This document shows, in pieces, positions 1,791 through 64,000 of a DNA stretch of 64,000 nucleotides (positions within the stretch are counted from its first letter, which is position 1; each line of letters starts with the position of its first letter). The stretch lies in assembly GCA_029204225.1 (NCBI GenBank), contig CM055106.1, positions 42,364,368-42,428,367 on the forward strand. The letters are read 5' to 3'. Under the pieces are notes generated by a model, which was not told the origin of the DNA, ran no database searches, and worked only from the letters and a program-made list of their open reading frames with translations. Source of the stretch: Diphasiastrum complanatum (taxonomy: Eukaryota; Streptophyta; Lycopodiopsida; Lycopodiales; Lycopodiaceae). Position numbers and translations under genes: made by a program.

Positions 1791-1795
1791 GCAAT

Positions 1796-1814: not shown

Positions 1815-1927
1815 AGGTGAGTATAGGCCATTGTTTGTTGTGTCAAGTTTTTGGATTGAATCTGAGTCTTCATACTTTTTCCATGTTGATCTTTGTTTTC
1901 TGGACGATCACACACTTTGAAATCTTT

Positions 1928-1965
1928 GTAGATTAGAAGTGGCGTGGCCGCCACTTCTAATCTAC
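1928..1965. repeat. Perfect 17-bp-stem hairpin
   Basis: A perfect inverted repeat with arms at 1928-1944 and 1949-1965 and a 4-base loop; the arm begins GTAGATTAGAAGTGGC. It lies about 70 bp outside the large foldback of the left transposon copy. No T-run follows it, so a terminator role is not supported. It could be a small foldback remnant or a structured RNA element. Confidence 0.75.
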
Positions 1966-2036
1966 CACGGCAAAGGGAGAATCTAAAATATTTTTTTTGA
2001 AAAATAAAATATTTCATTTAGATTTCTTTTAGTACC

Positions 2037-2925
2037 AGAGGCCATTTGCAGACCCAATATCAAATCAACGTGCGCGTAGAAAGTCAAACAATAGCAAACA
2101 GAACAGTCAGAAACTAGGCGGATGGTCGCACGAGATTCTGAAACATGAATATCACGATTGGGTCGGGCGTGTTGAACTGATATTGAAAAACGGTAGCTTT
2201 TGAAAGACAGCTCGGATTGAGACGATTACAACGCCATTAGAAAGCCTTCGACAAGTGTTGAGTCAATGACACCCAACATGACCTAGTTTCAAGCTATGGT
2301 TAAAGAGATATTCTCAATCAAAGTTTTGGGCGGTCAACAGTCAACGGTCAACCTAATAGCGGATTGACGTGCAGTTGACCAGTTTGACCCGCTCAAACCC
2401 TAAGGGTGCACACCGATCCGATATTAGGGTTTTCAATTTTTATTTGGAAAGAGCTCGACGAGAGCTTTGCAACGGCACCAGAATGACTTAAATCCGAGCT
2501 ACGGTTAAAAAGTTATAGGCACTTAGGGTTTGACCGAGTTTGACAGGGTCAAACTGGTCAACCGCGTGTCGATCCGCTATTAGGTTGACCATTGACTGTT
2601 GACCGCCCAAAACTTTGACTGAAAATATCTCTTTAACCGTAGCTTAGAACTGGGTCATGTTGGTGTCATTGAAAAGCTCTCGTTGAGGGCTCTAATCGCG
2701 CTGTAATCGTCTCAATCTGAGTGTCTTTCAAAAGTTACCATTTATATCGATTCAGCGCGCCCGATCCAATTGTGGTATTCCTGTTCCAGAATCTTGCGTG
2801 TCCATTCGCTATCGCCTAGTTTCTAACTTTTCTGTTTGCTATCGATTTGGCGCGTCCAACCTACATCTTGCAATTGCTGACTTTCTACGCACGCACTGAT
2901 CCGATATTGGGTCTGCGAATGGCTC
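2037..2925. mobile_element. Foldback (long imperfect inverted repeat) of the left H3/ULP1 transposon
   Basis: Two arms of roughly 375-400 bp (about 2037-2410 and 2520-2925) are imperfect reverse complements around a spacer of about 110 bp. The outer ends match as GGCCATTTGCAGACCCAATAT against GATATTGGGTCTGCGAATGGC read in reverse. The inner arms match through W-box-like runs such as GGTCAACAGTCAACGGTCAACC-type clusters. The arms hold both orientations of the 18-bp motif, and the right arm ends on the ATG of the H3-like remnant. This resembles the long terminal or subterminal inverted structure of foldback or Mutator-like elements. No transposase is visible. Confidence 0.7.
2893..2910 (+). promoter_or_regulatory. 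Motif copy directly upstream of the H3-like start (left copy)
   Basis: GCACTGATCCGATATTGG ends 8 bp before the ATG at 2919. The same arrangement occurs in the right transposon copy at 58975-58994, 6 bp before the ATG at 59001. Shared position in two diverged copies suggests a conserved promoter or leader element, or the inner edge of a terminal repeat. The function is inferred. Confidence 0.5.
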
Positions 2926-3071
2926 GCATGAAGTAAACAACATAGATTTATCTTGGAGGTGTCCCAATGCAAGGAGGCCACCAGGGAAATCCACCACCAC
3001 CTCGTCCTCCACCATCGCCTCCTAGGCCAAGGGGCATGCCATGTGACCCGCCATGGTTGAAGGATATCTGA
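2919..3071 (+). pseudogene. Histone-H3-like N-terminal tail remnant (transposon-borne)
   Basis: This frame is the broken homologue of the gene at 59001. Read through its stops it gives MARMK-stop-TT-stop-IYLGGVP, then a proline-rich PPPPRPPPSPPRPRG stretch, then PPWLKDI-stop. Register and length match the right copy (MARTKQTTQGHPGGVP... PPWLKDIRK). The stops replace two glutamines (Q5 and Q8 in histone numbering) and the arginine after KDI; a CGA-to-TGA change would explain the last. Downstream, the histone core seen in the right copy is not recognisable. This is the second member of the family in the window and shows that the tail-plus-proline arrangement was inherited with the element and not assembled once by chance. 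Confidence 0.75.
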
Positions 3072-3319
3072 ATAATTCGTGCGCTTGTTGAGCTGATATC
3101 CGGTCATGAAATTCGAACGTAAAGTTTTTTTTATTGTCATGTTTGTGCTTATGTAGAGTGGAGCTTCGGAAATGATTGCCCTCGTGAGGTTCCGCGCACG
3201 TAGCATATCTCTAGGTACGTAATTCAGCGACCATTCATTACTTTTAGGCATAGGTACCATGTTGTAATATTATTATTGGTGGACGTGTATAGCCCCATAT
3301 TATATGACAAATATATTCT
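3072..3319. other. Tail of left transposon copy, no recognisable domain
   Basis: The stretch after the H3-like tail should hold the histone core if collinear with the right copy, but no such similarity is visible in any frame. It is probably unrelated or badly decayed interior sequence. Confidence 0.35.
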
Positions 3320-3355
3320 TTAAGGGCCCATTTTGAGCCCAAATTTCCCCTAATG
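3320..3355. repeat. Terminal-inverted-repeat-like end (…CCCTAATG)
   Basis: Read on the minus strand this begins CATTAGGGGAAATTTGGG and continues CTCAAAATGGGCCC. The palindromic element at 56793-58953 begins CATTAGGGCCCTTTTTGG and continues ACTCAAAAAGGGCC. The shared spaced words (CATTAGGG, CTCAAAA, GGGCC) suggest the same terminus family. It stops exactly where the truncated copia A 5' LTR begins, as expected if a DNA transposon inserted into that LTR. Confidence 0.45.
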
Positions 3356-3601: not shown

Positions 3602-4486
3602 ATGGATCCATCATCCAGATCATCTCTCATTGACAAACTCGATAGAGATAACTACCATTTCTAGAAATTCAAGATAAAGGTTATACTTCTAGCCAAAGAA
3701 TTGTGGGACATCGTTGATAGCACAGAGCTCAAACCAGAAGGTGATGCAGTCGTCATCACCAAGTGGAGACTGAGAGATGGCAAAGTATTTGCCATGATCA
3801 CCCTCAACATGAAAGACACTCAGATCATCCACATACGTGCTTCTCAGACAACTAAGGATGCATGGGACATCCTAGCAACTCTCTACGACATTAGAGATGT
3901 TACATCCAAGCTTCATCTGAGGAAGAAATTCTTCACCCTCAGAATGTCTAACGCAGATAGTGTTTCGAGCCACCTCAACAATTTCAAAAATCTTATGGAG
4001 CAAATGACTATAATAGGCTCAATCATAGAAGATTCCGATGCACTCATGACTCTATTAATGAGTCTACTTGAAGCCTACAGAAATTGGGTAATGGCAATTT
4101 CTACCCAAGAGCACCTCACTCTAACAAGAGTAATCTTGCTGCTCCCACAAGAGGAGATTAGAAGATCAGCATCCTCCTCAGGCTCAGGATCGAATCCTCA
4201 AGCTCTATATTCAAAAAATCAGAATTTTAGATCCAAAAGATCTACAAAGTCAGGCTATACTGACAAGAAGAGCAACATGCAGTCCGGACTAAATTCCAGT
4301 TCAAGATCAAATTCAAGCTCTTCATCATTCCAACCTGTGCAGAAACTATTCTGCAGATACTGTAAGAGGACTGGCCACAAAATCAAAGACTGTCGAACTT
4401 TGAAGTACAATAGCAAAAAGAAGAAGCAGTTCCAATGTGTTGGAGCACATAGTGCTACAGCCAGTCACTCAAATCAGCAACAATAA
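3602..4486 (+). pseudogene. gag: Copia A gag (broken)
   Basis: Nucleocapsid-type Gag of a Ty1/copia element. The likely start is the ATG at 3602 (MDPSSRSSLIDKLDRDNYHF). A TAG follows 19 codons later where related copies have Trp, and the frame then runs open to 4486. It contains the gag core (LWDIVDSTE... KLHLRKKFFTLRM... LNNFKNLMEQM), a Ser-rich segment, and a CX2CX4HX4C zinc knuckle (CRYCKRTGHKIKDC) near the end. It ends in tandem TAA codons where the gag-pol frame should continue. Its nearest relatives in the window are copia C gag (16887-17591) and the copia H knuckle. Confidence 0.85.
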
Positions 4487-5760
4487 TAAGAAGAAGATGA
4501 AGCAACTCTCGTGACTAAAGTCGGAGAACAATATGATATCAATTCTTGATATCTAGACTCCGAAGCAACTTAACATATGACTCACCATCACGACTGGTTC
4601 AAAGACTATAAGTCGTTCACCCAGTCTTGAGTTGTGCAACTTGGAGACAACTCATCGCATTTAATCGAAGGCGAAGGAACACTCAAAGCTGAACAAGAAT
4701 TTACTCTCAGTTAGTAGAATCATCGATTCATTTCGGAGGGTTCGATATAGAAGGCTGCACAACTCTTGACAAATCTCAGAAGGTTTTAGCCTACGGAAGA
4801 AGAAGTAGCTATCTATACAAGATCAACCATTGTTATTCTTCTAACAGTCAAACTCTTCAGACAACCACTTCTGAATCAATTGATATGCTGTGGCATTTCA
4901 GACTTGGCCATCTTAACTACAACAGTATTCAGCAAATGTCAGCTCATAGTCTAGTACAAGATCTGCCGTCAGTTAGCAAGCCAATTTCTCCATGTGAAAG
5001 CTGTATTATTAGCGAGCATGCAAGGAGTCCCTTCAGCCCAAACTCAATTCATGCATCCAAGGGCTTGCTTGACTTTGTACATAGCGACATTTGTGGCCCG
5101 ATGCAGACTGCTTCCATAGGGGGACCTCTCTATTTTCTAACCTTCATTGACGACTTCTCTCGAAGGACTACTACCTATTTTAGAAGAACAAATCCGAAGC
5201 ATTCAAGTTTTTCATGCAGTTCAAAGCATCTGTAGAGAACTAGACCCAGAGGAAGATCAAGGCTCTACGAACAAATGGAGGGGGAGAGTACATCTCCATA
5301 GAAGCTAAGGAGTTCTGCAAGGCCAACGGGATACTTCAACAATGCACAACCAGCTACTCACCTCAGTTCAATGGTGTAGTTGAGCGGAAGAACCGGACAT
5401 TCATCAAAAGTGCCAAGAGCATGTTGGCCCATGCCTCTCTTCCAAAGAAATTCTGGGCAGAAGCTGTTACTACAACTGCCTATTTGCAGAATCGATCCAT
5501 CACCAAAGCTCTGAATGGCAAGACACCTTATGAGGTGTGGACAAGATCAAAACCATCACTCAAACATATTCGAGTGTTTGGATGCATCACTTTTGCTCAA
5601 ATCCCTGAGAATATAAGAAGAAAGCTAGATGACAAAATCAAGAAAATGATTTTCATCGGCTATTCCCCAAATCACAAGACATACAAGCTCTACAATTTGG
5701 ATATCGAGAAGGCATTCACTAGTAGAGATGTCATTTTTGTGGAAGACTAGTTCCTCGGCC
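4487..5760 (+). pseudogene. pol: Copia A protease and integrase (broken)
   Basis: The protease region is decayed: the usual LDSGATQHMT appears as LDSEAT-stop-HMT near 4555-4580. From 4885 the integrase N-terminal HHCC zinc domain is clear (MLWHFRLGHLN... CESC). The first catalytic-region motif follows (HSDICGPMQ... FIDDFSRR), then a frameshift near 5190-5235. The second acidic residue region (RTNGGGEY-like) and the QFNGVVERKNR glutamate motif follow in other frames. The C-terminal part (VFGCITFAQIPE... FIGYSPNHKTYKLYN... SRDVIFVED) is open from 5421 to 5750. It is not functional. Confidence 0.85.
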
Positions 5761-5829
5761 ACAAAAAAAAAGCTGTTGATAATTCCGACTCACGGATCGA
5801 GCAACCAGTCAATTTTGATCCAAAGAATA

Positions 5830-7218
5830 AATTGCAGAACCTCGATGCTGACTCAGACGATGAGTCAGAACCTCAACAAGTCAACCCACATCAGAGGACC
5901 AAAGTTCAACCCAGAAGGTCAAACAGGTCTAGACAGCCTCCATCTAGATTTATGGATGATCCGACTTGCTACTTCGTGCATGAACCAAATACAGTTGTTG
6001 AGGCGATGTCTACTCCTGATGCTGACCAATGGAAAGTAGCAATGGACACCGAATTCGATTCTCTTATGGAGAATCAAACATGGACACTCACTGAGTTGCC
6101 AAAGGACCGGAAACCAATTCCATGCAAATGGATATTCAAGGCAAAGCACGATGTTGAAGGAAGACTAAATCGTTACAAGGCTAGGCTAGTCGCCAAAGGC
6201 TTTTCCCAGATTCCAGATCTGATTATTCAGAAACCTTCAACCCAGTTGTCAAACATGCATCGATCTGCCTGCTCCTCTCCTTTGCAGTCACGACAGACCT
6301 TGAAGTCCACCAGATGGATGTCCAGACCGCTTTTCTCATGGAACCATTGAAAGCCCAGGAATACAAGATGATTGACATGGGTCCAGCCCACCATTGTCTC
6401 AGAATCCAAATCCAACGAGATCGACCCAACAGACTGATCTTGATAACGATATCTCAACAACGTGCTGAAAAAGTATGGAATGGCCAACTGCAAATCCAGT
6501 CTCTTTCCACTCGACCCTGGACTAAAGTTATCAAAGAAACAGTCTCCATTTCAATCCATCATCGGCTCACTGATGTACGCAATGATCTGCACGCGACCAA
6601 ACCTTGCATATTTGATCAATACACTCAGCCAGCTCCTGTCAAATCCAAACATAGCTCATTGGAAAGCGCTAACAAAGATCATGAAGTACATTCAAACAAC
6701 GACAACTCTCAGCATCTGCTATGGAGGCAGCCAAACTACCAACATTCTTGAAGCCTACATAGATGCGGATTGGGTAGGAGATGTCGACACCAGAAAATCA
6801 ATTTTTGGGTTTGTATTTTTATACAACCAAGGCCCAATCTCATGGAACAGCCGAAAGCAGACCTCAGTTGCATTATCGCACAAAATCTGAATACATAGTT
6901 GTCACAAATGCAACCAAAGAGGTGATCTGGCTCAGGCACCTACTTGCAAATCTAAATCTTGCACAACCACTTCCTACAACAATCTATTGTGACAATCAAA
7001 GCACAATAGCGCTATCTCTCAGTCCGAGATTTCACTCTCAAAGCAAACATATAGAAATCAGGTATCACTACCTTAGAGAGAAAGTGCACAGTAAGGAAGT
7101 AGTATTGATTTTCTGCAAAACAAACATCATGGCAGCAGATTACTTCACAAAGGGTCTATCAAAGGGATTTAATGATATGTTAAATCTAAAGATCAAAGTT
7201 TTTCAGGATCCACATTAA
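5830..7218 (+). pseudogene. pol: Copia A reverse transcriptase-RNase H with internal deletion
   Basis: The RT start is clear (MDTEFDSLMENQTWTL... WIFKAKHDVEGRLNRYKARLVAKGFSQ). After VHQMDVQTAFL the sequence jumps from ACCATTGAA to GCCCAGGAATAC, removing the segment that carries YVDD in the related copy at 20.9-21.2 kb. RNase H follows (KYGMANCKS... SIIGSLMYAM... AYIDADWVGDVDTRKS... SWNSRKQTS), with a frameshift near 6890. It ends in SEYIVVTNATKEVIWL... YCDNQSTIAL... HIEIRYHYLREKV... ADYFTKGLSKG, stopping at 7218. Without the active-site segment this RT cannot polymerise. Confidence 0.88.
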
Positions 7219-7225
7219 GGGAAAG
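7217..7225 (+). promoter_or_regulatory. Polypurine tract of copia A
   Basis: AAGGGAAAG lies immediately before the TGTTAG start of the 3' LTR and overlaps the end of the pol frame. It is the expected second-strand primer position. Confidence 0.8.
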
Positions 7226-8430
7226 TGTTAGATTTCTTATGCTCAGTCCTAAACAAATCATTCAAGTAATGGGCATCTTGAAAAACCGAAGGCCGACAAC
7301 ATATTTTCAGGCCTTCACATTTTTCCCCTTGAGATTTTTTATACCTTAGAAAATCATTTTAAAGACACCTTCGCCTATTTCTCTTTTTCGCTCCTTAGCA
7401 AAAAATGCGACACACTGGCCAAGTGGCCATAATACCTTAGAAAATTATTTTACAGACACCTTCATCTTTTTCCCTTTTTTTACTCCTTACCAAAAAATGC
7501 GACACATTGGCCAAGTGGCCAGAATACCTTAGAAATCATTTTAAAGACACCTTCGTCTTTTTGCCTTTTTTCACTCCTTAGCAAAAAATGCGACACACTG
7601 GCCAAGTGGCCATAATACCTTAGAGAATCATTTTAAAGGCACCTTTGTCTTTTTCCCTTTTTTCGCTCCTTACCGAAAAATGCGACACATTGGCCAAGTG
7701 GCCAGAATACCTTAGAAATCATTTTAAAGACACCTTCGCCTTTTTGCCTTTTTTCACTCCTTAGCAAAAAATGCGACACACTTGCCAAGTGGCAAGAATA
7801 CCTTAGAAATCATTTTAAAGGCACCTTCGTCTTTTTGCCTTTTTTGCTCCTTAGCGAAAAATGCGACACACTGGCCAAGTGGCCAAATTACCTTAGAAAT
7901 CATTTTGTAAGGCACCTTCGCCTTTTTTGCCCTTTTTGCTTTTTCACATTTTTGGCTGACCGACTTCGCCAACTTATGAATAACTCTAAAGCCAGTTGGA
8001 CAAAGAAATATTCCAAAGGCGGTTGGCGGTTACCAACTTTGTACATATGCATAGACTGGCATAAATAGCATTAAAGGCTTAAAACATATTAGCCTTCGAC
8101 ACCTGTAAATCTATATATTTTAGCTGATTCAAGCTATGTAAGAAGAGAATTTTTATTAATTTGTTTTAATCAATAACTCTCTATCAATCAGAGTTATCTG
8201 TAGCTAGCATTATCACGCTCAACAAGCTGAAGTTATTACTTCAAGCTATTGTACTCATTGTATTAATCAAAGTGCAATTTCTGTCTCACTACTGTGTCGT
8301 TCATTTGCGCCTATGTATGAATTCTTCTACTTGAATATTTCTACTGCTAACTGTTGCATTTCTGTTCCTACACGCCGCTCCATTTCTCGAGCTCCCACTG
8401 CCGCTCACGCCCACACGTGATTTTACGACA
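7226..8430 (+). mobile_element. Complete 3' LTR of copia A
   Basis: About 1.2 kb, starting TGTTAGATTTC after the polypurine tract and ending TTTTACGACA. The end is fixed by identity with the 5' LTR fragment that abuts the primer-binding site. Its first half is dominated by a 91-bp tandem array. The second half holds the probable R/U5 region shared with the 5' remnant. Confidence 0.85.
7331..7960 (+). repeat. Six-unit ~91-bp tandem array inside LTR A
   Basis: The word GCGACACA recurs at about 7408, 7499, 7590, 7682, 7773 and 7863, a period of 90-92 bp. Each unit carries the self-complementary core TGGCCAAGTGGCCA, an A-run before GCGACACA, and the phrase CCTTAGAAAATCATTTTAAAG. Arrays of this kind in the U3 region of plant LTRs often carry enhancer-like sites, but that role is inference here. 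Confidence 0.9.
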
Positions 8431-8935
8431 AAAGATCAAGGGATGATTTTGGATCTTAAATGATCTGAAATTCTTCACACAAATGACTTCAATCTTGCTT
8501 GGATCCAAAAAACATCAAGTACATAGAGTAGAAACTCAAGTTTTGCCAATGATCTCTAAAAAATAATCTAAGTGTTCACTATGGAGAGTCTCCTACATAC
8601 AAAAGTCTCTTCCTTTGTAAAGTTTGATGAATTTCCAGCATGTACTAAGGAAGTTAACTTGGCTTTCTTGCCCTCATTTGCCAACCTAGCCTCATTCCTA
8701 GAGTCATGCCAAGTACGTGGCTAGTAGGTCAATTTTCCTCCTTAAATATAGGTTCTAGGTCCTATAAAGTAGGAATCACTACCAAATTGACTTGACCCAC
8801 TTTTTAGACTCGATCTAACTTACCCTAGTGTGTATTACCATGTGGCTCCATGGCCTCACACGTGTGGGACCCACCTATGTACATTTTATTTGGTTTTGAT
8901 CAAGCTAGATTTGCCAATTTTGGGCAATTTCTCAC
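8431..8935 (-). mobile_element. LTR of family D (partial, minus orientation)
   Basis: Collinear with the family D LTR at 48.6-49.29 kb. Shared phrases include CACTATGGAGAG, TTTCCAGCATGTA-TAAGGAAGTTAAC, GGTCCTATAAAGTAGG, GTGTGGGACCCAC and TTGATCAAGCTAGATTTG. On the minus strand the start is TGTGAGAAATTGCC, corresponding to TGTGAAGAATTGCC in the better copy. No polypurine tract flanks it, so the neighbouring element body is lost. It abuts the end of copia A's LTR. Confidence 0.7.
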
Positions 8936-9039
8936 AATTCTGGGTACAAATGGGACATCAAACATTGTCCCAACAAGTATACTACTGCTGATATGTCTCT
9001 GCTTAAGGTGTTGCAGTATTCTGAAGAGCCTTCAGTTTT

Positions 9040-9465
9040 TGGTCAAACTGGACCATGAGCTGCTCCATCTGCTGTATGTATATCTTTGTGATCTGTTCCA
9101 TCAGCAATTCGTTGGATAAGCTTTTTGAAGCTGAGGTTGATGCATTTGAAGGAGTTGAAGCATGAAGAATTTGTAGTTCCTAGTGTTGAATCATCATCTG
9201 ATCCTTCATCTTCTTCCCTCATAATATCTTCCAATGTGGCATACTGCTCTCATCTTTTAAACTCTCGTCAGATGCTTCTGGGTAGTCTCACTAGGAACCA
9301 CATAATGGTCGCATGATCGGGAGTCAACTCCGCATTACACTCGGATCGTAGTTGTTTGATCTGCTGAATATAAAATCTAACCCTTTCTCTTTTCCCCATC
9401 TTGATTTTACTAATTAGGAGGAATGGGTCTTCAAGGAACTTGCGTGACTTGAATCTCGTGATCAA
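9040..9465 (-). pseudogene. gag: Gypsy-type gag fragment
   Basis: The minus-strand frame at 9268-9465 reads ITRFKSRKFLEDPFLLISKIKMGKRERV, then YIQQIKQLRSECNAELT. This matches the Ty3/gypsy-type retrotransposon gag domain and aligns closely with the gag at 63034-63225. Downstream, EEDEGSDDD (9043-9234) matches the acidic segment that follows this domain in the copies at 62.6-62.9 kb and 26.7-26.9 kb. Both ends are cut, by family D LTR sequence on one side and by copia B on the other. Confidence 0.75.
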
Positions 9466-10549
9466 AGTGTCTGGTTAGATAGAATAAACTCATATCTTTT
9501 GCATATTGGGTTCAAACCAAATAGTGGTGATTGTAATGTCTATGTACAATATGTGACTATATTAGTGATCATTGCACTTTATGTTGATGATGGATTATTA
9601 TTCAGCAATGATTAATTATTATTGTCAAAGATTAGGTCAATTCTTTCAAAAAAATATGATATGACTGATCAAGGTGAAGTACATCACTTACTCGCATTCA
9701 AATCAGCAAAGATAGAATAAATAGAAAGCTTTATATTCTCAATTAGCACAAATATATACATAACATGTTGTAGAAATACAACATGGGTGATTGCAAGCCC
9801 ATTGATTCACCAATGGATCTTGGCTAGAAGCTCTCAAAATACATTTGTCCCAAGAATATAACAGAAGGGTTAAATTCTACACAGTACCCTTATCAATCCT
9901 TGATTGGTCACTAATGTATGCAATGATTTATACCAAACCAGATTTGGCCTTTACAGTCAGTGCACCAAATCAATTTATGACAAATGTAGGATTTCAACAT
10001 TGGAAGGCTCTGAAAAAAAGTCATGAAGTACATTCAAAGTACTAAAGCCTATGCACTATGTTATGACAGAACCATTCCTATAGGATTAACTCTATATGGG
10101 TACACCAATTCATATTGGGGTGGAGATCCAGATACAGAAAATCAACTTCTAGTTATTGTTTTTATTTAGCAAGTGGTCCAGTCTCCTAGAACAACATAAA
10201 GTAGAAATCAGTTTTTTTTGTCTTCAATAGAAGCTGAATATATTGGTGTAACTCAAACCACAAAAGAAGCTATTTGGATCAGATTATTATTGGATGATAT
10301 CCTCAAACCAACTATGACAACTTAAAGTTGTATATCTCTTTCTCTCAATCCTAGTTTCCATTCTAGGACTAAACACATTGAAACACAATTCCAATTTGTA
10401 AGAGAGAAAGTACTTGCAAAGCAAGTAGAGTTAGTATGTTGTGATACTAACAAGATGGTCGCAGATATTTTTACTACAACTTTAATTAAATCAAAGCGTG
10501 TTTAGATTGTGAATATGTTAAAATTGGATCAGAGTCCAGAAGTGAGCTT
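9466..10549 (+). pseudogene. pol: Copia B reverse transcriptase-RNase H remnant
   Basis: Starts within RT (SGDCNVYVQYV... IIALYVDDGLLFSND), so the catalytic YVDD is present. It continues through LMYAMIYTKPDLAF and an RNase H decayed by frameshifts and stops (GYTNSYWGGDPDT; SIEAEYIGVTQTTKEAIWI; HIETQFQFVREKV). It ends just before a polypurine tract at 10550-10558. Gag, protease and integrase are absent, so this is a 5'-truncated copy. Confidence 0.8.
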
Positions 10550-54210: not shown

Positions 54211-55200
54211 TTATTGCGTTTGTACCAGATCATAATCATCGTAATCAACGACGTTTGCTCTACTAATGTCATGTCCTCCAATGGCCTCTACATTTTCGAA
54301 GGGGATATATCTAGGCCTTGGGAGATATTTTTTTTGGAATTCCAAAAATTCCTCCTCTGTATGCAAAGATTTTTCATAGGCTTTAGAATTTTCAATCATG
54401 GCCTCCAAGGCCTCATTGCCAGATTTTCAACTGCCATCTTTATCATAATCTATCTCACTTTCAAGGTCATCATATGAATGATCAACAATGTCATAAAATT
54501 CAGATAAATTTTGAGCAAAAATTGAGAGGATCTCATCCTCTCTCAAATTCAAAACATCTTCTATATCATTAAATGAAATATAACTTTCATTATTTATAAA
54601 ATATAAGGGAACATTGAGTAGAGTTAATTGATTAACAGGAGTGGCAGATGGAAGAATATCAAAGAGGATTATAGAACGAGGGAGAGTTCTTTGATAATCT
54701 AAAGCCATATATGCTTCAGCTTCGACTCCTATATCAGTATCTGCATCATCTACATCAACTGGAGCAAGTGCAGATGCTTCGATCAATGGAACAGTTGAAG
54801 ATTCAACAGACTCATCATCTAGAATTTCAGCAGATATGTAAAAGACAAATGCCATTCCTTTGATAAGAAGACGACATATTCTTTTGTGGATATCAAAATA
54901 TATATCTCTTTTGAAATGTTCATGCAGGTTAGAGTACTTTCTATTATGTTTATGCTTAGAGGATGGTTGGGAATGCACAAGGTCTTGAAAATGAACGAAA
55001 CAAAAACTATCTATTCCTTGAACATGAGTACTAATAATCTAAGAAAAATTATCAAGAAGAGAAATTAAATTATAACAATTCTCATAAACTAGCTTATCGA
55101 TATTGAAGGGAGCAAAAAAAATACTAGCAAAATACCCTAATTTCTCAGATGGAATGTCACTAGCATTACAAAAAATCCAGAAGTTTGTTATCTGAGGACA
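54211..55200 (-). pseudogene. Hypothetical acidic protein gene next to the motif cluster
   Basis: On the minus strand an open stretch runs from upstream of 54978 down to 54427, and a second frame from 54408 to 54211. The product is acidic (ILDDESVESSTVPLIEAS; VDVDDADTDIGVEAEAYMAL; FYDIVDHSYDDLESEIDYDK) and ends FENVEAIGGHDISRANVVDYD-DYDLVQTQ. Further upstream (55,200-55,040) protein-like sequence occurs in the same frame (GYFASIFFAPFNIDKLVYEN). It is separated by TTTTTCTTAG, either a stop codon or an intron acceptor. I do not recognise the family. It is transcribed away from the 18-bp motif cluster at 55.2 kb, as if it were the divergent partner of the H3/ULP1 gene in the same transposon. That is inference. 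Confidence 0.4.
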
Positions 55201-55208
55201 TGGAGGAA

Positions 55209-56792
55209 CTAGTCATATTGAACTTGATATCAGTTCAACGCGACAGAATGATATCGGTAGAGGAATGAACAAGAGTGCGCCCGTTGATCCGATATCGTTA
55301 GGACGAGTTTGAAATTTGTCGCGAGCACACGTCAGAAGTGGGTGATATCAATTCAGCGCGCTTGAATGAATCTGACAATGCACTGATTGGAAACGTGTGC
55401 ATCGATTCGATATCGCGAGATTGAAAGAAAACAAAAAAGACTAGTGAGTTCACAATAAAAAATCACGAAATCAAAATATGGCAAGTGGTGACATATTTAT
55501 AGCCAATTCATGTCGATCACAACCATACATTTGTCAAATGACTAATTGAGTAACACATCCTATATCTATCCACCAATTAGAGTGAGACAAATTTATACCT
55601 ACGCTGGAATACATTAACTAGTCTATCACTAGATTCAATGAATCGTCATTAGTCTTGACCCTAGAATCTGTACCTGCGCCGGAATACATTAAATTTTTAA
55701 TAAGTGGCCTCATCGAATAATCATTAAACATATAATAAACAAATGATAAATGGACATCATTGAAAAACATGTACGACGAGAATTATTACAATCTCTCGTC
55801 CTATTTAAGCAGAGTAAAGATGAGGTTTTTTCTTTTGAGATAATGTTCATTCAGAACATTTTCATTAGTCGTTCATATGGTGCACCAATATAATTTTTTT
55901 GCGTATCAGATATTGGATCAGCGCACCTGGCAAAAGATGGTTATTCTCCATTTGAACTGCGTGCGTCGAATCGTTATTGCAGAAACAAATTCTTTTTTGA
56001 AATTTTGGAAACTATTGGACTCCATTATGGGAGAAGACAATGATTTTTCACTTGGATTGCGTGCGTCGAATCGCTATTGTAAAAAAAAAAAGATTTTGGA
56101 AAATTTTTGAAATTATCGGAGGGTATTTTGCATGATCAAAGTTTGATTCGGTAGACTCTTCATACTGTCCAAAGCTAAGGAGAATCTATCGAATCAAGCT
56201 TTGATCATTCATATTATTTTTCAACATCGGTTCAACGCGCGGAAATAGCCTCTCTGGTTTTCACATGCAGTATATGCGCGTCGATTTGCTATTGGGTGAA
56301 ATAATGGCGTTTGGAATTTTACAAAATTATAATGATTGGATATAAAAAAATGTCAGATATTTATAGCTTAACATTGTCAATTTCAGCAATAAATTGTAGA
56401 TGTGACCATACTTTTGTGGCTTTAATTGTAGATGTGATCATGATTTAGTTGAAATTAATTGTGTTTTATTCAATATCGACTAATCATTTTGATGATAGAA
56501 AGATATTTAGTTTGATTTGATTGACAAGCCTCGGAGAAATCATCATCGTAATTCGAGCCTCGGACATCCAACCCACGACGTTTCATTTCAGATTTTCTCT
56601 ATATATACTGATGGACGACACTAAATTTTTTTTGCTTAAAGTTCTTACAGTTCTCTACATCCATGCGATAGCAATTCAGCATGCTCAAAACAAACTTCCT
56701 ACGAATTGCAATTACTCGCGCGCGCCCATTCCCTACCAGCTATCGGTTTTGTAGAGCTCAGGTATCGGTTCGACACGCTCTACCTGTCTTCT
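55209..56792. mobile_element. Motif-rich region of the right H3/ULP1 transposon
   Basis: At least ten copies of the 18-bp motif lie here in both orientations. Forward: 55225, 55343, 55909, 56225 and 56762. Reverse: 55276, 55395, 55960, 56060 and 56275. The reverse pair at 55960 and 56060 is nearly identical (GCGTGCGTCGAATCG-TATTG). A CTATTTAAG TATA-like box at about 55801-55809 is preceded by TCTCTCGTC. Short frames in the stretch look non-coding. Paired inverted copies are typical of subterminal repeats bound by a transposase. Confidence 0.6.
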
Positions 56793-58953
56793 CATTAGGG
56801 CCCTTTTTGGACTCAAAAAGGGCCTCTTTCTTGCCTAAACAGGTTTGTTAATCATAATTAGTTTAGTATTAATCAATCCTACGTGGCACTTTGACCTTGG
56901 GTCACCACATAGGGTGAGCAAGAGTTAAGGGCTAAATATAGGTCCCATCATCCATAGACTTTTGTAGGTACTTTGTAAGGCAAGACTGGACAACGGCTAG
57001 GGCTCTAGGTGGGGCATAGACTTGCAGGCCTCATTTAATGCCCAAGTACATTTCAAATTTGAAAATTGCTTATGAATTTTAATCAACCCACTTTTGTGTC
57101 CCCCTTCACATTCAAACTAAGACTACCTCACTTTCATTAGCCTTTCACATACCAAATAATTTATTTTTTTCAAAACTGGCCTTCGGGATACATTTTCATT
57201 TTGCCATGGATTTAGTCTGTTTGACCTCATAACCTCAAAAAAGGTGTTTATAAGTCAATTTGTTTTTATTAGTTTACAAACAGAAATGTTTCTCGGAGAC
57301 CAGTTTTTCATTTTTTTGGCCCGAAATCGCGATTTTTGGTCATTTCACTTCGTCAGAAGGCCAAAAATTGCGTTTCAGACCAAAAAAAAAAAAAAAAAAC
57401 TTTCACGTTAAGGCGCGATTCTGGGCCGTTTGACTTGGTCAAACGGCCCAAAATTGCAACTTACCGTGATTTTTTTAAAAAAAAAATTTGGTCCGAAAAG
57501 CAATTTTTGGCCTTCTGACGAAGTGAAACGACCAAAAATCGTGATTTCGGGCCAAAAAATCGAAAAACTAGCCTCCAAGATACATTTTCATTTTGCCATG
57601 ATTTAGTCCGTTTGACCTCAGAACCTCAAAAAAGATGTTTATTAGTCAATTTATTTTTATTAGTTTACAAACAGAAATCTATCCCGGAGGCCAGTTTTTC
57701 ATTTTTTTGGTCCGAAACCGTGATTTTTGGCCATTTCACTTCATCAGAAGGCCAAAAATTGCGTTTCGAAACAATTTTATTTATTTTATTTTTAAAAATC
57801 ACAGTAAGACGCGATTTTGGGTCATTTGACCAAGTCAAACGGCCCAAAATGATGCCTTACCATGATTTTTATTTTATTTTTTTTGTTCCAAAACGCAATT
57901 TTTGGCCTTCTGATGAAGTGAAACGGCCAAAAATTGCAATTTTGGGCCAAAAAAATGAAAAATTGGCCTCCTGAATACATTTCTATTTGTAAACTAATAA
58001 AAACAAATTGACTTATAAACACCCTTTTTGAGGTTACGAGGTCAAACAGACTAAATTCATGGCAAAATGAAAATGTATCTCGGAGGCCAGTTTTTTGTTT
58101 TCTTGGCCCGAAATCGCGATTTTTGGCCGTTTCACTTCATCAGAAAGCCAAAATTTGCGTTTCAGACCAAAAAAAAAATTTAAAAATTTAAAAAATCACG
58201 GTAAGGCGCGATTTTGGGTGGCTTGACAAACGGCCCAGAATTGCGCCTTATCGTGATTTTTTAAAAAAACAAAATTGGTCCGAAACGCAATTTTTGGTCT
58301 TTTGATGAAGTGAAATGGCCAAAAAACGCGATTTTGGGCCAAAAAAATGAAAAACTGATCTACGGGATACATTTTTATTTGTAAACTAATAAAAACAAAT
58401 TGACTTATAAACTTCCCTTTCTGAGGTTCTGAGGTCAAACAGACTAAATCCATGGCGAAATGAAAATGTATCTCGAAGGCCAGTTTTGAAAAAAATGATA
58501 TACATCTGAAAAAAAATAAATTGTTTGGTATGTGAAAGGCTAATGAAAGTGAGGTAGTCTTAGTTTGAATGTGAAGGGGGACACAAAAGTGGGTTGATTA
58601 AAATTCATAAGCAATTTTTAAATTTGAAATGTACTTGGGCATTAAATGAGGCCTGCAAGTCTATGTCCCACCTAAAGCCCTAGTTGTTGTCCTATTGTTG
58701 GCTACTAGGTACTGTGTGTAGCTATTGTTGGTTACTAGGTACTTTCAAGTGTATCCATGTACGGTTAATGTAGGGTTAATGCTAGAGGTGTACTTTGTGG
58801 GCCCACACTTGATTTAATCTACACCATTGAATCTACCATGTCATATGGACCAATCTTGCTCGATTGTCACACTTTTGTTGGTACACGTGTCATCATTAAC
58901 ACTAATCCAGATTAATGAAGAGGCCCTTTTTGAGTTCAAAAAAGGCCCTAATG
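56793..58953. mobile_element. 2.16-kb palindromic foldback element of nested palindromes
   Basis: The ends are CATTAGGGCCCTTTTTGG (left) and, read in reverse, CATTAGGGCCTTTTTTGAAC (right), a terminal inverted repeat. Inside, the two halves are reverse complements around about 57,832. The flanks match too (GCCTCATTTAATGCCCAAGTAC near 57,030 against its complement near 58,640). Three internal units (about 57,300-57,570, 57,685-57,970 and 58,090-58,360) are each palindromes centred on GACCAAGTCAAACGGCCC-like cores. Open frames inside are shadows of the repeat. No transposase and no clear target-site duplication are visible. It sits between the motif region and the H3-like start. Confidence 0.8.
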
Positions 58954-58974
58954 GATCACGGGTTCTCCTTCTTC

Positions 58975-58994
58975 GTGCGCTGATCCGATATTGG
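58975..58994 (+). promoter_or_regulatory. Motif copy directly upstream of the H3-like start (right copy)
   Basis: GTGCGCTGATCCGATATTGG ends 6 bp before the ATG at 59001. It is the counterpart of 2893-2910 in the left copy. Confidence 0.5.
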
Positions 58995-59000
58995 ACATTA

Positions 59001-59549
59001 ATGGCGCGGACCAAGCAAACTACACAAGGCCACCCTGGTGGAGTACCAATCTTAGGAGAGGGGTTGGGAAGTCCACCAGCACCACCTCGTCCACCACCAC
59101 CTCCTCCTAGGCCAAGGGGTAGAAGAAGAGACCCACCCTGGCTCAAGGATATTCGGAAGCTACAGAAGACAAATAGTCTTTTGATTTAGAAAGCTCACAT
59201 ACAGAGATCCATCAAGCATGTTACAAGAAGTCTATCTGCAGATGTGAAATGGATGGTAACGGCAATTGAGGCGCTACACACTGCATATGAGGATTTCCAA
59301 GTGAAAAAAATTTCAGATACTGTTGTTGCAGCTGTCCATGCCAACAGGGTGACCATCATGCCCAAAGATTTCAACATTGTGTTCAGGCTTCAGGACACAT
59401 ATGACAAATTTGTAGAATACTTTAGACCTGCAACCTCCTCTCTTCCAAAACAAGATTCAGAGAGCAGAAAACGAAAGCAATCTCAACCATCCCGGCTTGT
59501 TATTTGTATACATGAGCGGGAGTTTTTCAAAGAAGAGGAGGTCTTTTGA
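59001..59549 (+). pseudogene. Transposon-borne histone H3-like gene
   Basis: The start is MARTKQTTQGHPGG, matching the canonical H3 tail (after Met: ARTKQTARKSTGG) at A1, R2, T3, K4, Q5, T6, G12 and G13, while R8, K9, S10 and T11 are Q, G, H and P. A proline-rich insert with basic residues (PPPPPPRPRGRRR) replaces the rest of the tail. From WLKDIRKLQKTNSLLI onward it aligns without gaps to the H3 alpha-N helix and histone fold, and contains AVHANRVTIMPKD, nearly the canonical AIHAKRVTIMPKD. I count about 20 identities over the last 53 aligned core positions. A TAG at 59187-59189 takes the place of the Arg after LLI. After the core a C-terminal extension (YDKFVEYFRPA... SRKRKQSQPS) follows. 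One stop suggests a recent pseudogene, or a damaged copy of an active family. Confidence 0.88.
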
Positions 59550-60501
59550 CCCTCCAAATAAAGCGAGGGATTTTTCCAAGCCATCTCCTCTGGATGAAAT
59601 TCTTTCTTCTAGGCATTCTCCTCCTAATTCTCCTAAGTCTCTTCCCAGAATTCCATCTTTACCTTCTCCTGCTAAATCTTCCTCTCCTAATAAATCTCCT
59701 CCTCCTACCCCCATAAATATTAGTTCCCCTCCACTTGTTCTAGGAAATGATTTAGATGATTTTATTAATGTAAAGGTAGAATCAATTTTAAATGACAATT
59801 CTTTTTCTGGTTTATTTGTATTACTTCCGTCACACCCCCCCCCCCCCCCCCCCTCTGCACTTGCCTTTGTAAATACTCCTCAATATGTACAGTATGACCA
59901 ATTGTTAAACACGTACCTTAAAGATTTAGGTCCTTGATACAGTTTTAGGATGCCGAAGACCAATGCTGGTCTCCCCCTTCCTACTTTAAATACAGGTGAA
60001 TTAGAAAGTAGGGATGAAATGCTAGGTGACAATGTAGGAGGTGGGACCATTCAATATTGGATGGAGTTTTTCCAGACCCCATTGTTTATAGATGTAGTAT
60101 TGTTTTCCCTTCAATTCATGGCTGCATTTGATTTCCCTGATTTCAAAAGTCTGCACGATGATATGCTCCAATATGTCAGACTGGGGACTCCAATTCTCGT
60201 GCTGCCATACATAACAAAGTAAGTCTTTTTTTTTCAGATTTTATTATGTTTTGATTTCACATTGATTCTCATTAATTTATTGTTTTCTGATTGTAGTGAT
60301 CATTGGAGCTTATATGTGTTGTCCTTATACGTCAATGATGAGGGTGTGTGTAATCCAATTTGTTTAAAGATGAACTCTATTACACACACTCACAAAATTG
60401 CCAGGAGCCATATCCAGAAAATACTGGAACTCTTTCCAATACCAAATGCAAAAGCATATATGAAGCTAAAAATTGTTGATGCAGAGGTTAAAAATTTTTA
60501 A
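59497..60501 (+). pseudogene. Ser/Pro-rich linker and ULP1-like (C48) protease domain
   Basis: The frame starts about 50 bp before the H3 frame closes, in another register, so a frameshift or intron joins them. A Pro/Ser/Lys-rich linker (SPPNSPKSLPRIPSLPSPAK) includes a C19 run at 59835-59853 coding for Pro. After a TGA at 59935-59937 the same frame continues with a ULP1-type region (MLGDNVGGGTIQYWMEFFQT... LGTPILVLPYIT). A 78-bp GT-AG intron (60219-60296) then restores N-DHWSLYVLSLYV, the catalytic-His box of SUMO-protease-like C48 peptidases. The frame ends VKNF-stop at 60501, before any Q..DCG catalytic-Cys box, so the domain is truncated. ULP1-like domains are known passengers of plant Mutator-like elements. 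Confidence 0.75.
60219..60296 (+). other. Intron inside the ULP1-like domain
   Basis: The donor AA-GTAAGT and acceptor TTCTGATTGTAG flank a T-rich 78-bp interval. Splicing joins the exon frame 59950-60218 to 60297-60501 in phase and creates the expected Asn-Asp-His-Trp. An intact intron indicates a gene that was expressed as spliced mRNA. Confidence 0.75.
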
Positions 60502-60517
60502 TATCGGTTTGATGCGC
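60500..60517 (+). repeat. Last motif copy, right edge of the H3/ULP1 transposon
   Basis: AATATCGGTTTGATGCGCCC overlaps the ULP1 frame's stop codon. Within about 30 bp the sequence changes to copia RT on the minus strand, so the transposon copy is probably truncated or ends near 60,535. Confidence 0.5.
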
Positions 60518-60534
60518 CCTTGTAGTTATCGATA

Positions 60535-60775
60535 CTGTTGCCGAAAAGTAATATGTTGTCCACATATAAAGTGATAATGATAAAAGACTGTTAAATTGTC
60601 TTGAAGAGCTTGGTGTGTAGATGTTTTGAAACCATGCTCAAGCAGATTGCTTCAAGCCATAAAGTGCCTTATGGAGTCTGCATACATGATTGTGTTTATC
60701 TTTGATAATATAACCTTCGAGTTGCACCATGTAAATGTCTTCTTCGATAACTCCATTAAGATATGTTGTCTGTAC
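60535..60775 (-). pseudogene. pol: Copia H-type RT scrap
   Basis: On the minus strand: TTYLNGVIEEDIYMVQLEGY, KHNHVCRLHKALYGLKQSA, AWFQ, and then SLYVDNILLFGNS. It is very close to copia H RT at 29,330-29,610, with the segment between AWFQ and LYVDD deleted and YVDD changed to YVDN. It is joined abruptly to an integrase of a different family. Confidence 0.75.
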
Positions 60776-61660
60776 TAGTAGATCTTCTTGGAGTTCTTGG
60801 AGTTCTTGCATCTTGAGGTGGATCCTCAAGTTCTTCTTCACTTGGAAGCTCCTCCTCCATCCTAGCATGATCCTCGGCATCAAGATGATTAGTAGCATTA
60901 TCATCCAAATCACAAGCATGTCCTTCATAAAAAATAACATCCCTACTCACTATCACCTTGCTAGTGATGGGATTGAAGACTCTATAACCTTTGCTATTCT
61001 TACCATATTCCACAAAGATGCCTTTGATGGATGTTGCATCATCCTTCCTTCTCTTATCCAAGGATTGGTGTACATAGCAAGTGGATCCAAAAACTTTGAG
61101 ATCCTTGAGATTGGGCTTCTCTCCAAATAGAGCTTCAAATGGTGTGATTCCTCCAATGGCTTGGTTTGGCAATCTATTGGACAAATAGTTAGCACAAGTT
61201 ATTGCTTCACCCCAAAATGGTTTGGATAGAGAAGCATCTAGCCTTAAGGCCTTAGCACACTCACAAAGAGATCTATTTCTTCTCTCACTCACTCCATTTT
61301 GTTGAGGGGTGTATGGACATGACAACTCCCTCTTTATGCCATTAGAACTACAAAAGTCAATCAACTTATTGGAGATATATTCACCTCCATTATCACTCCT
61401 TAATACCTTAATCTTGGTACTAAGTTGATTTTCTACCAAAGTCTTGAACTTTACAAAAGAATCAAACATCATTGATTTGCTAGACAAGAGGTACATCCAA
61501 CAAAATCTAGAATAGTCATCAACGAAGATTACATAGTACTTGGCACCACCATTATACTCATGTGAAAAACTATGAACATCCGAATGGATGAGTTTAAGAG
61601 GAGAGTTTGATCTTGATGTAGACTTCTGGTTCTGCTTGAGCAAACTTTTGCACTAAGACT
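60756..61660 (-). pseudogene. pol: Copia J integrase (well preserved)
   Basis: The 295-codon open frame 61643-60756 has a complete catalytic core: LIHSDVHSFS (D1), RSDNGGEYIS (D2) and PQQNGVSERRNRSL (E), with FVDDYSRFCWMY between. The C-terminal FGSTCYVHQSLDKRRKDDAT... GYRVFNPITSKVIVSRDVIF follows, then an acidic linker to PRTPRRSTS. The N-terminal zinc domain is cut off, where gypsy gag-linker sequence begins. It is the only integrase in the window whose whole core is in one open frame. Confidence 0.9.
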
Positions 61661-63345
61661 TCTTTTGCTTTTGGCACCAACTTCAGGAACTCTCCCGATG
61701 AAATATTGATCTTACTAGACAAAATATTTATGAGCAGTTTTGTTTGCGGTGCTTTGTACGTGAATCTCTTGGTGGCTGCAATGGTGAAGAATGAACTTCT
61801 GTTATTGCTTTAGCAGCTTCAAGCTCGTCTTCTTCTTGCAGATGTTTAATTCACTGCCTCATATCTTGATATCTTTGTTTTTTTGCATGAGGATTTAGAT
61901 AGACTCCCGTTGCTATTGGTGTATCTTTCAATGGTATAAAATCAGCAGGTACTTTGCTTCTGTGCTCTGGTGACCACCATCAAGGGTGCACTTGGTTTAT
62001 TTTGAGCTACTAGTCTTCGCTTGACTGTTATCAAATTTAAAAGAGCTATAGTTGGCGGTGGCTTCAATCTTGATGGACAGTCTTTATAGCAATGCCCATA
62101 ACCACAGTCACGACAGAATGGTACAAATTTTCCTTTATTTGGACATTCTACAACTTTGTGATTTTCCCCACATGCAAAGCATCCAAGTGGTGCTCTGGTC
62201 TAGTTTCTAGATGCTTGTTGTTGCATGGCAGCATAAATAGCATATTGTTCTGAACATCCACCTTCTTGATCAGTGCCATAGTTCCATTGCTTGACACTTC
62301 TGTACGATTTTGGTTCCATCAAATTGTCTAGAGGAGCGAGGTGCTTTGGCGGGGCAGGTAAGGCTAAACGTTATGGGTATCCAAGAGCAAATTGTCAAGG
62401 TCTAGCTGTTGGATTTCCTCCATAATGTAGTTCTCGATATTCCATTTGGGCATACCATTGCTGAATCATCCGAGGATTGAAGTTGCAAAAAACAGTCACA
62501 TGATCAAGCGAATTACACAAATGGCATATACTGATTTCCATTCGTTTTTTCAATTGAGGACACTCATTCACTGTGTGATTTCATGTACAAATAGAACACC
62601 AGACATTTTCCCTGGTAGGAAAAGTCTTTGCAAACTTCTCAGGTTCCTTGTTCGCTTGTCCATGAAAATCTTCCAATGCTTTGATCTTCTCATCAAATTG
62701 CGACTGCAACTTTTCTGTTTGTTTCTGCTGGTTCTTCCCGAGTTTCTTGAACTCATTGAGCATCATTTCTACAGTAGCATTGACATTCATTGATGCAACA
62801 GTGGTGGATGTCGTAGTGGTCTGCCCTGCTATATAAGACAACATACTAATATTCGGCTCATCGTCTGAATCTTCATCCTCCTCCCAAATTGCATCATCCA
62901 TAGCATTTTGCAAAAGTGCATACTTATTATGTCATTTCAGCTCACATCTAATCCTTTTAGATAAACCTGACAAAACCTACATAATCATGGCATTTTCGAA
63001 AATCAGCTCAGGTTCGCACTCAGCTCTGAGGCGTTATACCTGTTCAATGTAATCTCGGACCATTTCCCACTTTCCCATTTTAATTTTACTTAAAAGTAGA
63101 AAAGGGTCTTCCATAAACTTTTGAGGTTTGAATCGTGTGATAAGGGCTCGTTTAACAATCTCCTCCGTACGCTTAGTTTCATCTTGATTATAGTACCAAT
63201 CTTGTGTTGCGTCTGTTAAGGCCATAGGAAAAAGCTTAAGTTTATCTTGGGGAAAAATTTCACCATAGACTTCACAAGATTTAGTATAGATCTGAAGAAA
63301 TCTAACTGGATCTGTTGATCCATTGTATTTGGGTAGATCCTATGA
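61660..63345 (-). pseudogene. gag: Gypsy-type gag with four zinc knuckles
   Basis: From 63345 downwards: DLPKYNGSTDPVRFLQIYTK, then SCEVYGEIFPQDKLKL, then MALTDATQDWYYNQDETKRT and ITRFKPQKFMEDPFLLLSKI (gag domain). An acidic EEDEDSDDEPN segment and a Gln/Lys-rich helix (NEFKKLGKNQQKQTEKLQSQ) follow. Then come CSIC-stop-NHTVNEC, CHLCNSLDHVTVFC, CFACGENHKVVEC and CRDCGYGHCYKDC, four knuckle-like boxes (the first with a stop inside it). Below 62,040 the frame decays, ending in FTYKAPQTKLLINILSSKIN near 61,740. It is the same family as 26.07-27.48 kb and 9.04-9.47 kb. Confidence 0.8.
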
Positions 63346-64000
63346 ATGAATTGCCAAAAATTGGCAAATTTAGCTTGATCAAAAACCATGTAGAATAGTG
63401 TAAATTGTGTACACAAGTGGGTCCCGCACATGTGAGGATATGATGCCACATGGGAAACCCATCCTAATGTAGGTTAGGTCAATTCAAGAGAGTTGGTCTT
63501 GTCTATTTGGTGGTCATCCCTACTTTATAGGACCAACACCTAAGTTTAAGGTGAAAATTTGACCAACTAGCTAGCTACCAAGCATAACTCTAGGATCTAG
63601 GCTAGGGTTTCATTTTAGGTCAAGGAGAGTGAGTTAACTTCCTTATTACATGATGGAAATCAACCTAACTTCAAGAAGGAAGTCGATTTTGCTATGTATT
63701 CCCTCTCTCCATAGTGAGAAGATAGAAAATTTTTAGAGCTCATTGGCAATCTCAAGCTAGTTCACTATGTACATTGAGTTTTTGTGATCCATTGAAACCA
63801 AATCAATTTCTACTTGTTTCTCAGGTTGAAGGCCGTACTACAGCCTGTAGTACACACGTGTGGGCTCGGATTTCAATTTTTATCAATGCTTTTGATTGTT
63901 AATGCTTGTTGTTTGTCAAATTGCCAATCTAGATCAACTTTTTTGTGTCTAGTTTTTTGATAGATTGTTAAGCAAGCATCCAATCACTCTTGTGGATCTT
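63346..64000 (+). mobile_element. Family D LTR, plus orientation (runs off the window)
   Basis: Begins near TGAATGAATTGCC and continues as an almost exact reverse complement of 49291-48613 (for example CCACACGTGTGTACTACAGG and GTCCTATAAAGTAGGG on the respective strands). It abuts the gypsy gag at 63345 with no visible polypurine tract, so it is either a solo LTR or the 5' LTR of an element lying beyond the window. Confidence 0.8.

Follow-up and report, generated by a model that had tools for sequence, protein, structure and literature searches.

Capture of histone H3 by a DNA transposon is already known, since a hAT element of 9.5-9.9 kb carrying H3 has been published from Pseudocercospora fijiensis and its relatives, where it occurs in hundreds of copies (PMC6710886). 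According to the accessible excerpts of that paper, the fungal hAT-H3 makes 8 bp duplications, 90% of its H3 copies are truncated and all but the original have been inactivated by RIP (PMC6710886). Here and below, the described systems are taken as they appear in accessible excerpts of the cited papers. In Arabidopsis, the VANC proteins of VANDAL transposons bind a 9 bp motif that recurs in the non-coding DNA and introns of their own element; they cause loss of methylation and undo silencing, and the 9 bp motif of VANC21 forms same-direction arrays (PMC5735166). A related VANDAL group carries Ulp1-bearing KIU genes (PMC13317346). The CMCT transposons, comprising EnSpm/CACTA, Mirage, Chapaev, Transib, Plavaka, ESTA and Lanisha, are marked by 5'-CA..TG-3' ends and by a C(2)C and an H(3-4)H pattern that lie in the transposase after the second Asp and before the last Glu (PMC12730594). 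Epigenetic cargo has been described in fungal transposons encoding a TET/JBP dioxygenase and in oomycete HarbingerS and MuDR elements carrying a SET methyltransferase (PMC12730594).

We analyzed a stretch of 64,000 nucleotides of Diphasiastrum complanatum (C15:42364368-42428367, hereafter the window), in which an H3-like frame lies within a DNA transposon. The gene concerned, named gene D, encodes an H3-like domain, a Pro/Ser linker and a Ulp1-like domain. Like the fungal hAT-H3, the transposon is a cut-and-paste element of similar size with many H3-like copies; unlike it, it has the Ulp1-like fusion, constraint on internal branches and a strongly changed tail, and it resides in a plant (PMC6710886, excerpts). 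Pfam searches found no hAT transposase, and no 8 bp duplication was present at EL33, the reference copy of the element (n=1). With VANDAL it shares a plant DNA transposon bearing an accessory gene, Ulp1 in one of the groups and motif repeats within the element itself, whereas the motif here is 18 bp long and arranged in inverted pairs of fixed spacing, and the ends and transposase differ. No histone domain is reported in the accessible VANDAL excerpts, and the word "histone" is absent from the main text of PMC13317346 as far as it was accessible. The element resembles the CMCT transposons in its CA..TG ends and in the signature of its gene A as assigned here, and differs from their excerpted description in having no Pfam transposase match, no duplication at EL33 (n=1) and an H3. 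The TET/JBP and SET carriers are alike in bearing epigenetic cargo, but theirs are enzymes writing or erasing marks, as far as the excerpts go, and here the cargo is a histone. The histones of giant viruses (PMC9145170, excerpts) likewise belong to a mobile genome with a histone of its own, but a viral one; when viral contigs were searched with the H3-like alignment, 0 of 21 pattern matches encoded a relative.

Among the matches listed in a search of open-licence papers there was no plant transposon with a histone gene. This agrees with the original prediction, to which no described plant transposon family with an H3 variant was known; the published fungal hAT has to be added as a correction (PMC6710886, excerpts). 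As far as the literature showed, a constrained H3 variant fused to a Ulp1-like domain is new. The reading that we prefer, although tentatively and at somewhat less than an even chance, is that gene D is a self-encoded anti-silencing factor working like VANC.

The H3-like frame and the element that carries it

The frame predicted to start with MARTKQT at 59001 was borne out by the open reading frame analysis. It reads MARTKQT...RVTIMPKDF, ends at 59549 and is interrupted by a single in-frame TAG, which is codon 63 (59187-59189), and by a later frameshift. The profile search proposed in the original prediction gave a significant match to the Pfam Histone family (PF00125, E 2.1e-16, 60.7 bits, cut-off 26.4), and four stop-free copies from the genome, two of them near-identical, scored 68.6-73.2 bits (E 3e-20 to 8e-19). 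A chance open frame was ruled out by the Pfam Histone score. A phmmer search of the PDB with the window frame returned 184 sequences at E<=1, of which the best 60 were all named H3 or H3 variant; the best match (E 9.9e-18) covered query residues 1-131. With three queries (lists of 184, 173 and 176), the best 60 rows were named H3 in 60/60, 60/60 and 59/60 cases, the exception being one row named merely histone domain-containing. The core aligned to H3 without gaps, as had been predicted, in the three PDB alignments inspected, and the tail was gapped. A single-sequence AlphaFold model of the window protein had a mean pLDDT of 43.5, too poor for use. A search of the window with Rfam gave 0 matches.

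Copies of the frame were sought by a six-frame search of the genome (1,744,706,496 bases, 5,176 contigs), in which 150 of 8,471 first-look candidates were scored. The H3-like frame was found in at least 150 places, with 68-100% identity and E 2.8e-76 or better, and by our own count the matched stretch was stop-free in 21 of the 150 listed places. Thirty copies as loci and 20 more domains were examined further; some pairs on small contigs (L004/L005, L008/L015 and L010/L011) are probably haplotype duplicates. Other genomic copies, for which the original prediction had proposed a search, exist, and the element context was common to the stretches compared.

Comparison of the stretches around young copies yielded shared ends. 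The left end, CATTAGGGGAAATATGGGCTCAAAATGGGCCC, was present in four copies with small changes, and the right end, reversed CATTAGGGGATATTAGAACTCAAAATGGGCCC, in two, one of which has the outer part alone; the right ends of three further copies were searched for and not found. These ends read 5'-CA..TG-3' (left end in four copies, right end in two). EL33 (C7:16084609-16094614, minus strand, L038 plus L033) has both CATTAGGGG inverted ends and measures 10,006 bp. The H3-like frame lies between its two inverted ends, and the same flanking element sequence was found in the stretches compared. No target site duplication was seen at EL33, the sole copy with both ends (n=1), the CMCT criterion being 2-5 bp. 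In blastn, EL33 and the window copy were 85% identical in two large blocks and 77% in a smaller one. The parts of the window copy outside gene D and the motif units are as follows.

54223-60533, plus strand: truncated copy of the H3-carrying transposon, matching EL33 3608-7604, with a nested element at 56793-58953
54427-54978, minus strand: remnant of gene C, from the open reading frame list; the MASSSMAS start is seen in other copies

With its stop, its frameshift and the loss of about 3.6 kb on the left and 2.4 kb on the right, the window copy of the transposon is dead.

Besides gene D, the element has three genes. Gene A is on the plus strand at about 400-3,270 of EL33, in pieces, with an Asp in IKLDECEI followed by GDLK, PCLYC, VHICTLH and SQGMEK. 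In seven stretches these motifs were seen four (GDLK), five (PCLYC), three (VHICTLH) and two (SQGMEK) times, the remaining stretches ending earlier or being out of frame. Gene A has the C(2)C/H(4)H signature that marks transposases of the CACTA/Transib (CMCT) type, the catalytic residues being our own assignment. It matched no Pfam family above the cut-off (weak, chance-like rows only) and no PDB relative, and a fragment of it searched against phages gave no match. Gene C, on the minus strand, starts at 4600 of EL33 with MASSSMAS and has an open frame of 347 codons in L036. Gene B is on the minus strand at about 9,700-8,450 of EL33. Neither B nor C matched a Pfam family above the cut-off; a diverged relative of gene B at 2-615 of the window (tblastx, best piece 48% over 69 residues) argues that B is a real gene. 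By its ends and the gene A signature the element may be called CMCT-like; it has no transposase family match and we do not file it as a member. A Mutator-like element had been the first idea, from the Ulp1-like domain, and was given up in favour of a CMCT-like one in view of the ends and of gene A.

The observation of an H3-like protein inside a transposon is confirmed, and the interpretation given to it in the original prediction is supported. It is scarcely credible that the frame belongs to a host gene family struck by transposons and is not a transposon gene. Its likeness to H3, and nothing beyond, would speak for such a family, but the H3 frame, the linker, the Ulp1-like exons, the motif units, the other genes and the ends are homologous among copies and the outer flanks differ.

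Paired motifs in the non-coding DNA of the element

An 18 bp motif, GCGCGYTGATCCGATATT, recurs in the non-coding DNA, where it forms inverted pairs with an offset of 53 bp. At up to four mismatches, EL33 has 14 sites against 0.05 expected, located at 4609-6051 (between genes C and D) and at 7571-7727 (intron 2 of gene D); none lies in genes A or B of EL33. In the window there are 8 sites in 54223-60533 and 8 in 1-3355, with 0 to 0.2 expected from simulated sequence, and 0 in the 54,334 bases of 3356-54222 and 60534-64000. The H3 frame had been predicted to sit among transposon-specific motifs, and all 16 window sites indeed lie in two element remnants. The motif pattern was drawn from these elements, and the counts therefore show clustering and are not an independent discovery. 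The sites of the window copy are listed below.

55226-55296, no strand: 71 bp palindromic unit, GCGCGYTGATCCGATATT and its reverse complement at an offset of 53 bp
55344-55414, no strand: 71 bp palindromic unit whose second half-site has 5 mismatches, offset 53
55909-55978, no strand: palindromic unit, offset 52, second half-site with 5 mismatches
56223-56293, no strand: 71 bp palindromic unit, offset 53
58975-58992, plus strand: half-site 8 bp upstream of the start codon of the H3 frame; the nested element has separated it from its partner side
60500-60517, minus strand: half-site with 4 mismatches, where intron 2 begins

Over 35 stretches with 390 sites (up to five mismatches) there were 157 divergent pairs within 130 bp, and 141 of them had an offset of 52-53 bp. 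These pairs are not independent, since L006, L013 and L024 repeat longer stretches and several are haplotype duplicates. With common ancestry and duplicate copies the pair counts overstate the case; the independent support is about seven unit positions per element. The 34-35 bases inside the units vary, by eye, from unit to unit. A fixed spacing around freely varying bases suggests a single protein complex of two-fold symmetry. Successive units are regularly spaced as well, with preferred same-strand offsets of 84-89, 94 and 118-119 bp and preferred convergent offsets of 33-34 and 66 bp (L031-L036 and other stretches).

The right half-site lies exactly 8 bp 5' of the ATG of gene D in 26 of 29 copies (L002 left out), and the best partner half-site, with 4 to 8 mismatches, has an offset of 53 in 21 copies. 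In EL33, the one copy examined in this respect, a unit also ends 8 bp before the ATG of gene C. The original prediction had named simple, motif-free retrocopies of a host H3 gene as the finding that would speak against it; because of this site before their start, the copies are not of that kind.

An H3-like domain on such units could be an architectural part of a transposition complex or act in target choice, as a tetramer with host H4 on the dyads or by steering insertion, for example to centromeres if it derives from CENH3. The dyad unit roughly equals in length the DNA of an H3-H4 tetramer (70-80 bp). The EL33 sites, on the other hand, are found between C and D and in the intron of D, away from the ends, and the 150 listed places are scattered, by eye, over many contigs; we consider a role as a transposition factor unlikely. 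Gene D is in a VANC-like setting with a histone in addition, and an anti-silencing role is therefore favoured.

Fusion, constraint and altered residues of gene D

Gene D is on the plus strand and starts at 6060 of EL33. Exon 1 encodes the H3-like domain, followed by a Pro-, Ser- and Lys-rich linker and the beginning of the Ulp1-like domain, and is open over 405, 417 and 427 codons in L034, L035 and L036, respectively. Exon 2 would carry DHWSLYVLS and exon 3 DSVSCGWYT, the proposed introns being GT-AG. In the window the gene is preserved in the following parts.

59001-59411, plus strand: H3-like domain, residues 1-137, from the frame, Pfam and PDB, with TAG at 59187-59189
59412-59859 (end approximate), plus strand: Pro/Ser/Lys-rich linker, frameshifted in the window copy
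59860-60218 (start approximate), plus strand: remainder of exon 1, first part of the Ulp1-like domain
60219-60296, plus strand: proposed intron 1, gtaagt...tgtag, at the same position in other copies
60297-60486, plus strand: exon 2, with the DHWSLYVLS (His) motif

The Ulp1-like neighbour of the original prediction is uncertain by profile, lacking a secure Pfam match, and depends on its conserved HW and CG motifs and on selection. One peptide with a wrong splice matched PF02902 at E 0.26 (11.5 bits, cut-off 20.7), two correctly spliced peptides matched no Pfam family, and the PDB gave chance-like rows only. The HW motif is present in 26 of 26 aligned copies; 22 copies extend to the CG motif, and 21 of these have its Cys (of 33 copies in the search, 7 were excluded because of gaps, and duplicates are counted). 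The stretch where the acidic Asp of the triad is expected has Asn. The name Ulp1-like is used because of the conserved motifs, and not because of a profile match. A plus-strand LPNGDSAF had been considered for the catalytic Cys and was dropped after the CG exon was seen. At about 8,000-8,500 of EL33 (L033/L038) there is a further plus-strand frame 3' of exon 3, and a piece LPNGDSAFPARDNESCY.. in L034 resembles LPNGDNALQAGDHKACD.. upstream in other copies, perhaps as duplicated last exons of gene D.

Selection was analyzed by placing changes on trees by parsimony, with 43 distinct copies for the H3 part and 20 for the Ulp1-like part (33 copies, minus 7 gappy and 6 near-identical ones). On internal branches the H3 core had 33 non-synonymous and 36 synonymous changes (dN/dS 0.34, bootstrap 0.20-0.55), compared with 382 and 170 on terminal branches (dN/dS 0.82); over the whole H3 stretch the terminal branches were near neutral (dN/dS 0.98). 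The Ulp1-like part had 14 and 33 changes on internal branches (dN/dS 0.15, 0.05-0.32) and 198 and 109 on terminal ones (dN/dS 0.63, 0.47-0.86). The wrong-frame controls gave 1.33 and 1.18 (H3) and 0.63 and 3.86 (Ulp1-like) on internal branches, and 0.61 and 0.87 (H3) and 0.63 and 1.19 (Ulp1-like) on terminal ones, so that the terminal 0.63 of the Ulp1-like part and one wrong frame, also at 0.63, are likewise below 1. Clear constraint was seen neither in the tail alone (dN/dS 0.57, with a range of 0.26-1.17) nor in the part beyond residue 137 (0.88). Internal constraint in the right frame and higher terminal values indicate that gene D was constrained during spread and under much weaker or no constraint after insertion. 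Gene D, in its H3 core and its Ulp1-like part, was thus maintained in working order during the spread of the elements. The 104 non-synonymous changes placed on internal branches include four stops, of which two fall in the core, so that some broken copies seem to have multiplied too. For genes A, B and C the pairwise dN/dS values (0.61-1.38, 14 of 15 comparisons with a value) are uninformative, because post-insertion decay dominates.

These values bear on the view that gene D is a passenger, a captured fragment of host H3 carried without use as in the fungal hAT. H3 capture followed by inactivation is published for Pseudocercospora (PMC6710886, excerpts), and the broken window copy, the near-neutral terminal branches and the four internal stops would fit. 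Against it stand the constraint that internal branches show when the right frame is read, and a frame and fusion common to many copies; we regard this view as quite improbable.

The H3 residues were counted in the same 43 distinct copies (L002, which lacks the N-terminus, was dropped, then 6 of 49 as near-identical). The N-terminal Met is present in 38 of 39 copies. Within the tail T3 (43/43), K4 (42/43), Q5 (39/43) and T6 (40/43) were kept; R2 is Arg in 22 of 42 copies and R8 in 30 of 43. The place of K9 is taken by G, I or V in 42 of 43 copies. The canonical K9, K14, K27 and K36 are absent, no column of residues 6-45 having Lys in more than 3 of 43 copies, and the first 46 columns hold one Lys in 32 of 43 copies, two in 8, three in 2 and none in 1. 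A tail nearly without Lys between K4 and residue 45 makes this an H3-like variant and not a canonical H3. K4 is not singular, since H10, I16 and P37 (simple numbering) are as well kept. In the core, the H3 places K64, R83, H113, R116 and D123 were kept in 43, 42, 39, 40 and 43 of 43 copies, respectively.

The kept start of the tail would suit a decoy, a protein acting outside nucleosomes whose MARTKQT tail soaks up readers and erasers of H3K4 and whose Ulp1-like part is a free SUMO protease. T3, K4, Q5 and T6 persist in 39-43 of 43 copies with the remaining H3 tail replaced, and a tail with such a Pro-rich stretch would be stiff and exposed. However, it is the histone-fold core that is constrained (0.34), with residues of DNA and H3-H3 contact kept, and the tail alone is without clear constraint. 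A decoy is an improbable account of gene D.

The core was identical in 41 of 85 columns (48%, with a 2-residue gap) to the sequence that we take to be Arabidopsis CENH3, and in 38 of 84 (45%, gap-free) to that presumed to be H3.1. The residues LLIP, RWT, ED, FSD and KDF are presumably shared with plant CENH3, which would also suit a transposition factor steered to centromeres. Loop 1 has the length of H3, that of CENH3 being expected to be longer. The domain may descend from CENH3 or from H3. A plain H3 retrocopy was ruled out by the 45% identity of the core to the presumed H3.1, the fusion and the motif.

For the anti-silencing reading, we envisage that the 71 bp dyads before genes C and D and in the intron of D mark the DNA of the element and would be recognized by protein C or D. 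There the H3-like part might replace host H3, or compete for the readers and writers of the H3 tail. The K4 site of H3 is linked with active chromatin. The tail would thus offer a K4 site while lacking K9 and K27, at which silencing methylation would be placed; the Ulp1-like part could strip SUMO from nearby silencing proteins, and the genes of the element would remain expressed. The sequences show the element, a frame running through H3 and the Ulp1-like part, the constraint and the geometry of the motif; for gene D we infer splicing, binding, deposition, deSUMOylation and an effect on silencing. A narrower form is distinctly doubtful, in which the H3 variant, able to bear the K4 mark but neither the K9 nor the K27 mark, is deposited with host H4 on the dyads beside the genes as a heritable patch immune to silencing marks. 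It would be a nucleosome variant encoded by the parasite itself and guided by sequence, and we know of no other transposon with one.

Genes for erasing or blocking silencing marks are known cargo of transposons; here the cargo is a constrained histone, itself the substrate of those marks. A self-carried altered H3 may be a means of resisting silencing and, if so, a fusion of a histone with a SUMO-protease-like domain would be a new route of silencing escape. The element also provides a natural experiment on the H3 tail, with the K4 site kept and the silencing sites lost, and its many copies of differing age would make activity, silencing and decay readable in one genome.

Further remnants in the window

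The window holds an element nested in the H3-carrying copy and a second relic of its kind, both of which are given here.

56793-58953, no strand: nested element of 2,161 bp with ends CATTAGGGCCCTTTTTG / CAAAAAAGGCCCTAATG, delimited by the joined flanks in copies without it
2919-3068, plus strand: second H3 tail relic, MARMK*TT*IYLGGVPMQGGHQGNPPPPRPPPSPPRPRGMPCDPPWLKDI*, ending after DPPWLKDI
3316-3355, minus strand: terminal inverted repeat, matching the left end of EL33 in reverse with 90% identity over 40 bases

The nested element lies within the region before the H3 frame. Comparison with 14 copies without it, some of them haplotype duplicates, showed no target site duplication (TTCT / GATC). 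Its CATTAGGGCCC ends are kin of those of the H3 element.

A second damaged copy of the tail elsewhere in the window had also been predicted, and was recovered at 2919-3068, where 2982-3067 aligns with the corresponding part of the full element at 82% identity in 89 columns. The whole of 1-3355 is a diverged, rearranged relative of the element, with a B-like part at about 2-615, 8 motif sites at 1797-2908 and the tail relic. By eye, the right flank of this remnant has the look of a Copia-type LTR. In L035, a frame of 1,204 codons at 6388-9999, open and by eye of a Copia-type retrotransposon, adjoins the element.
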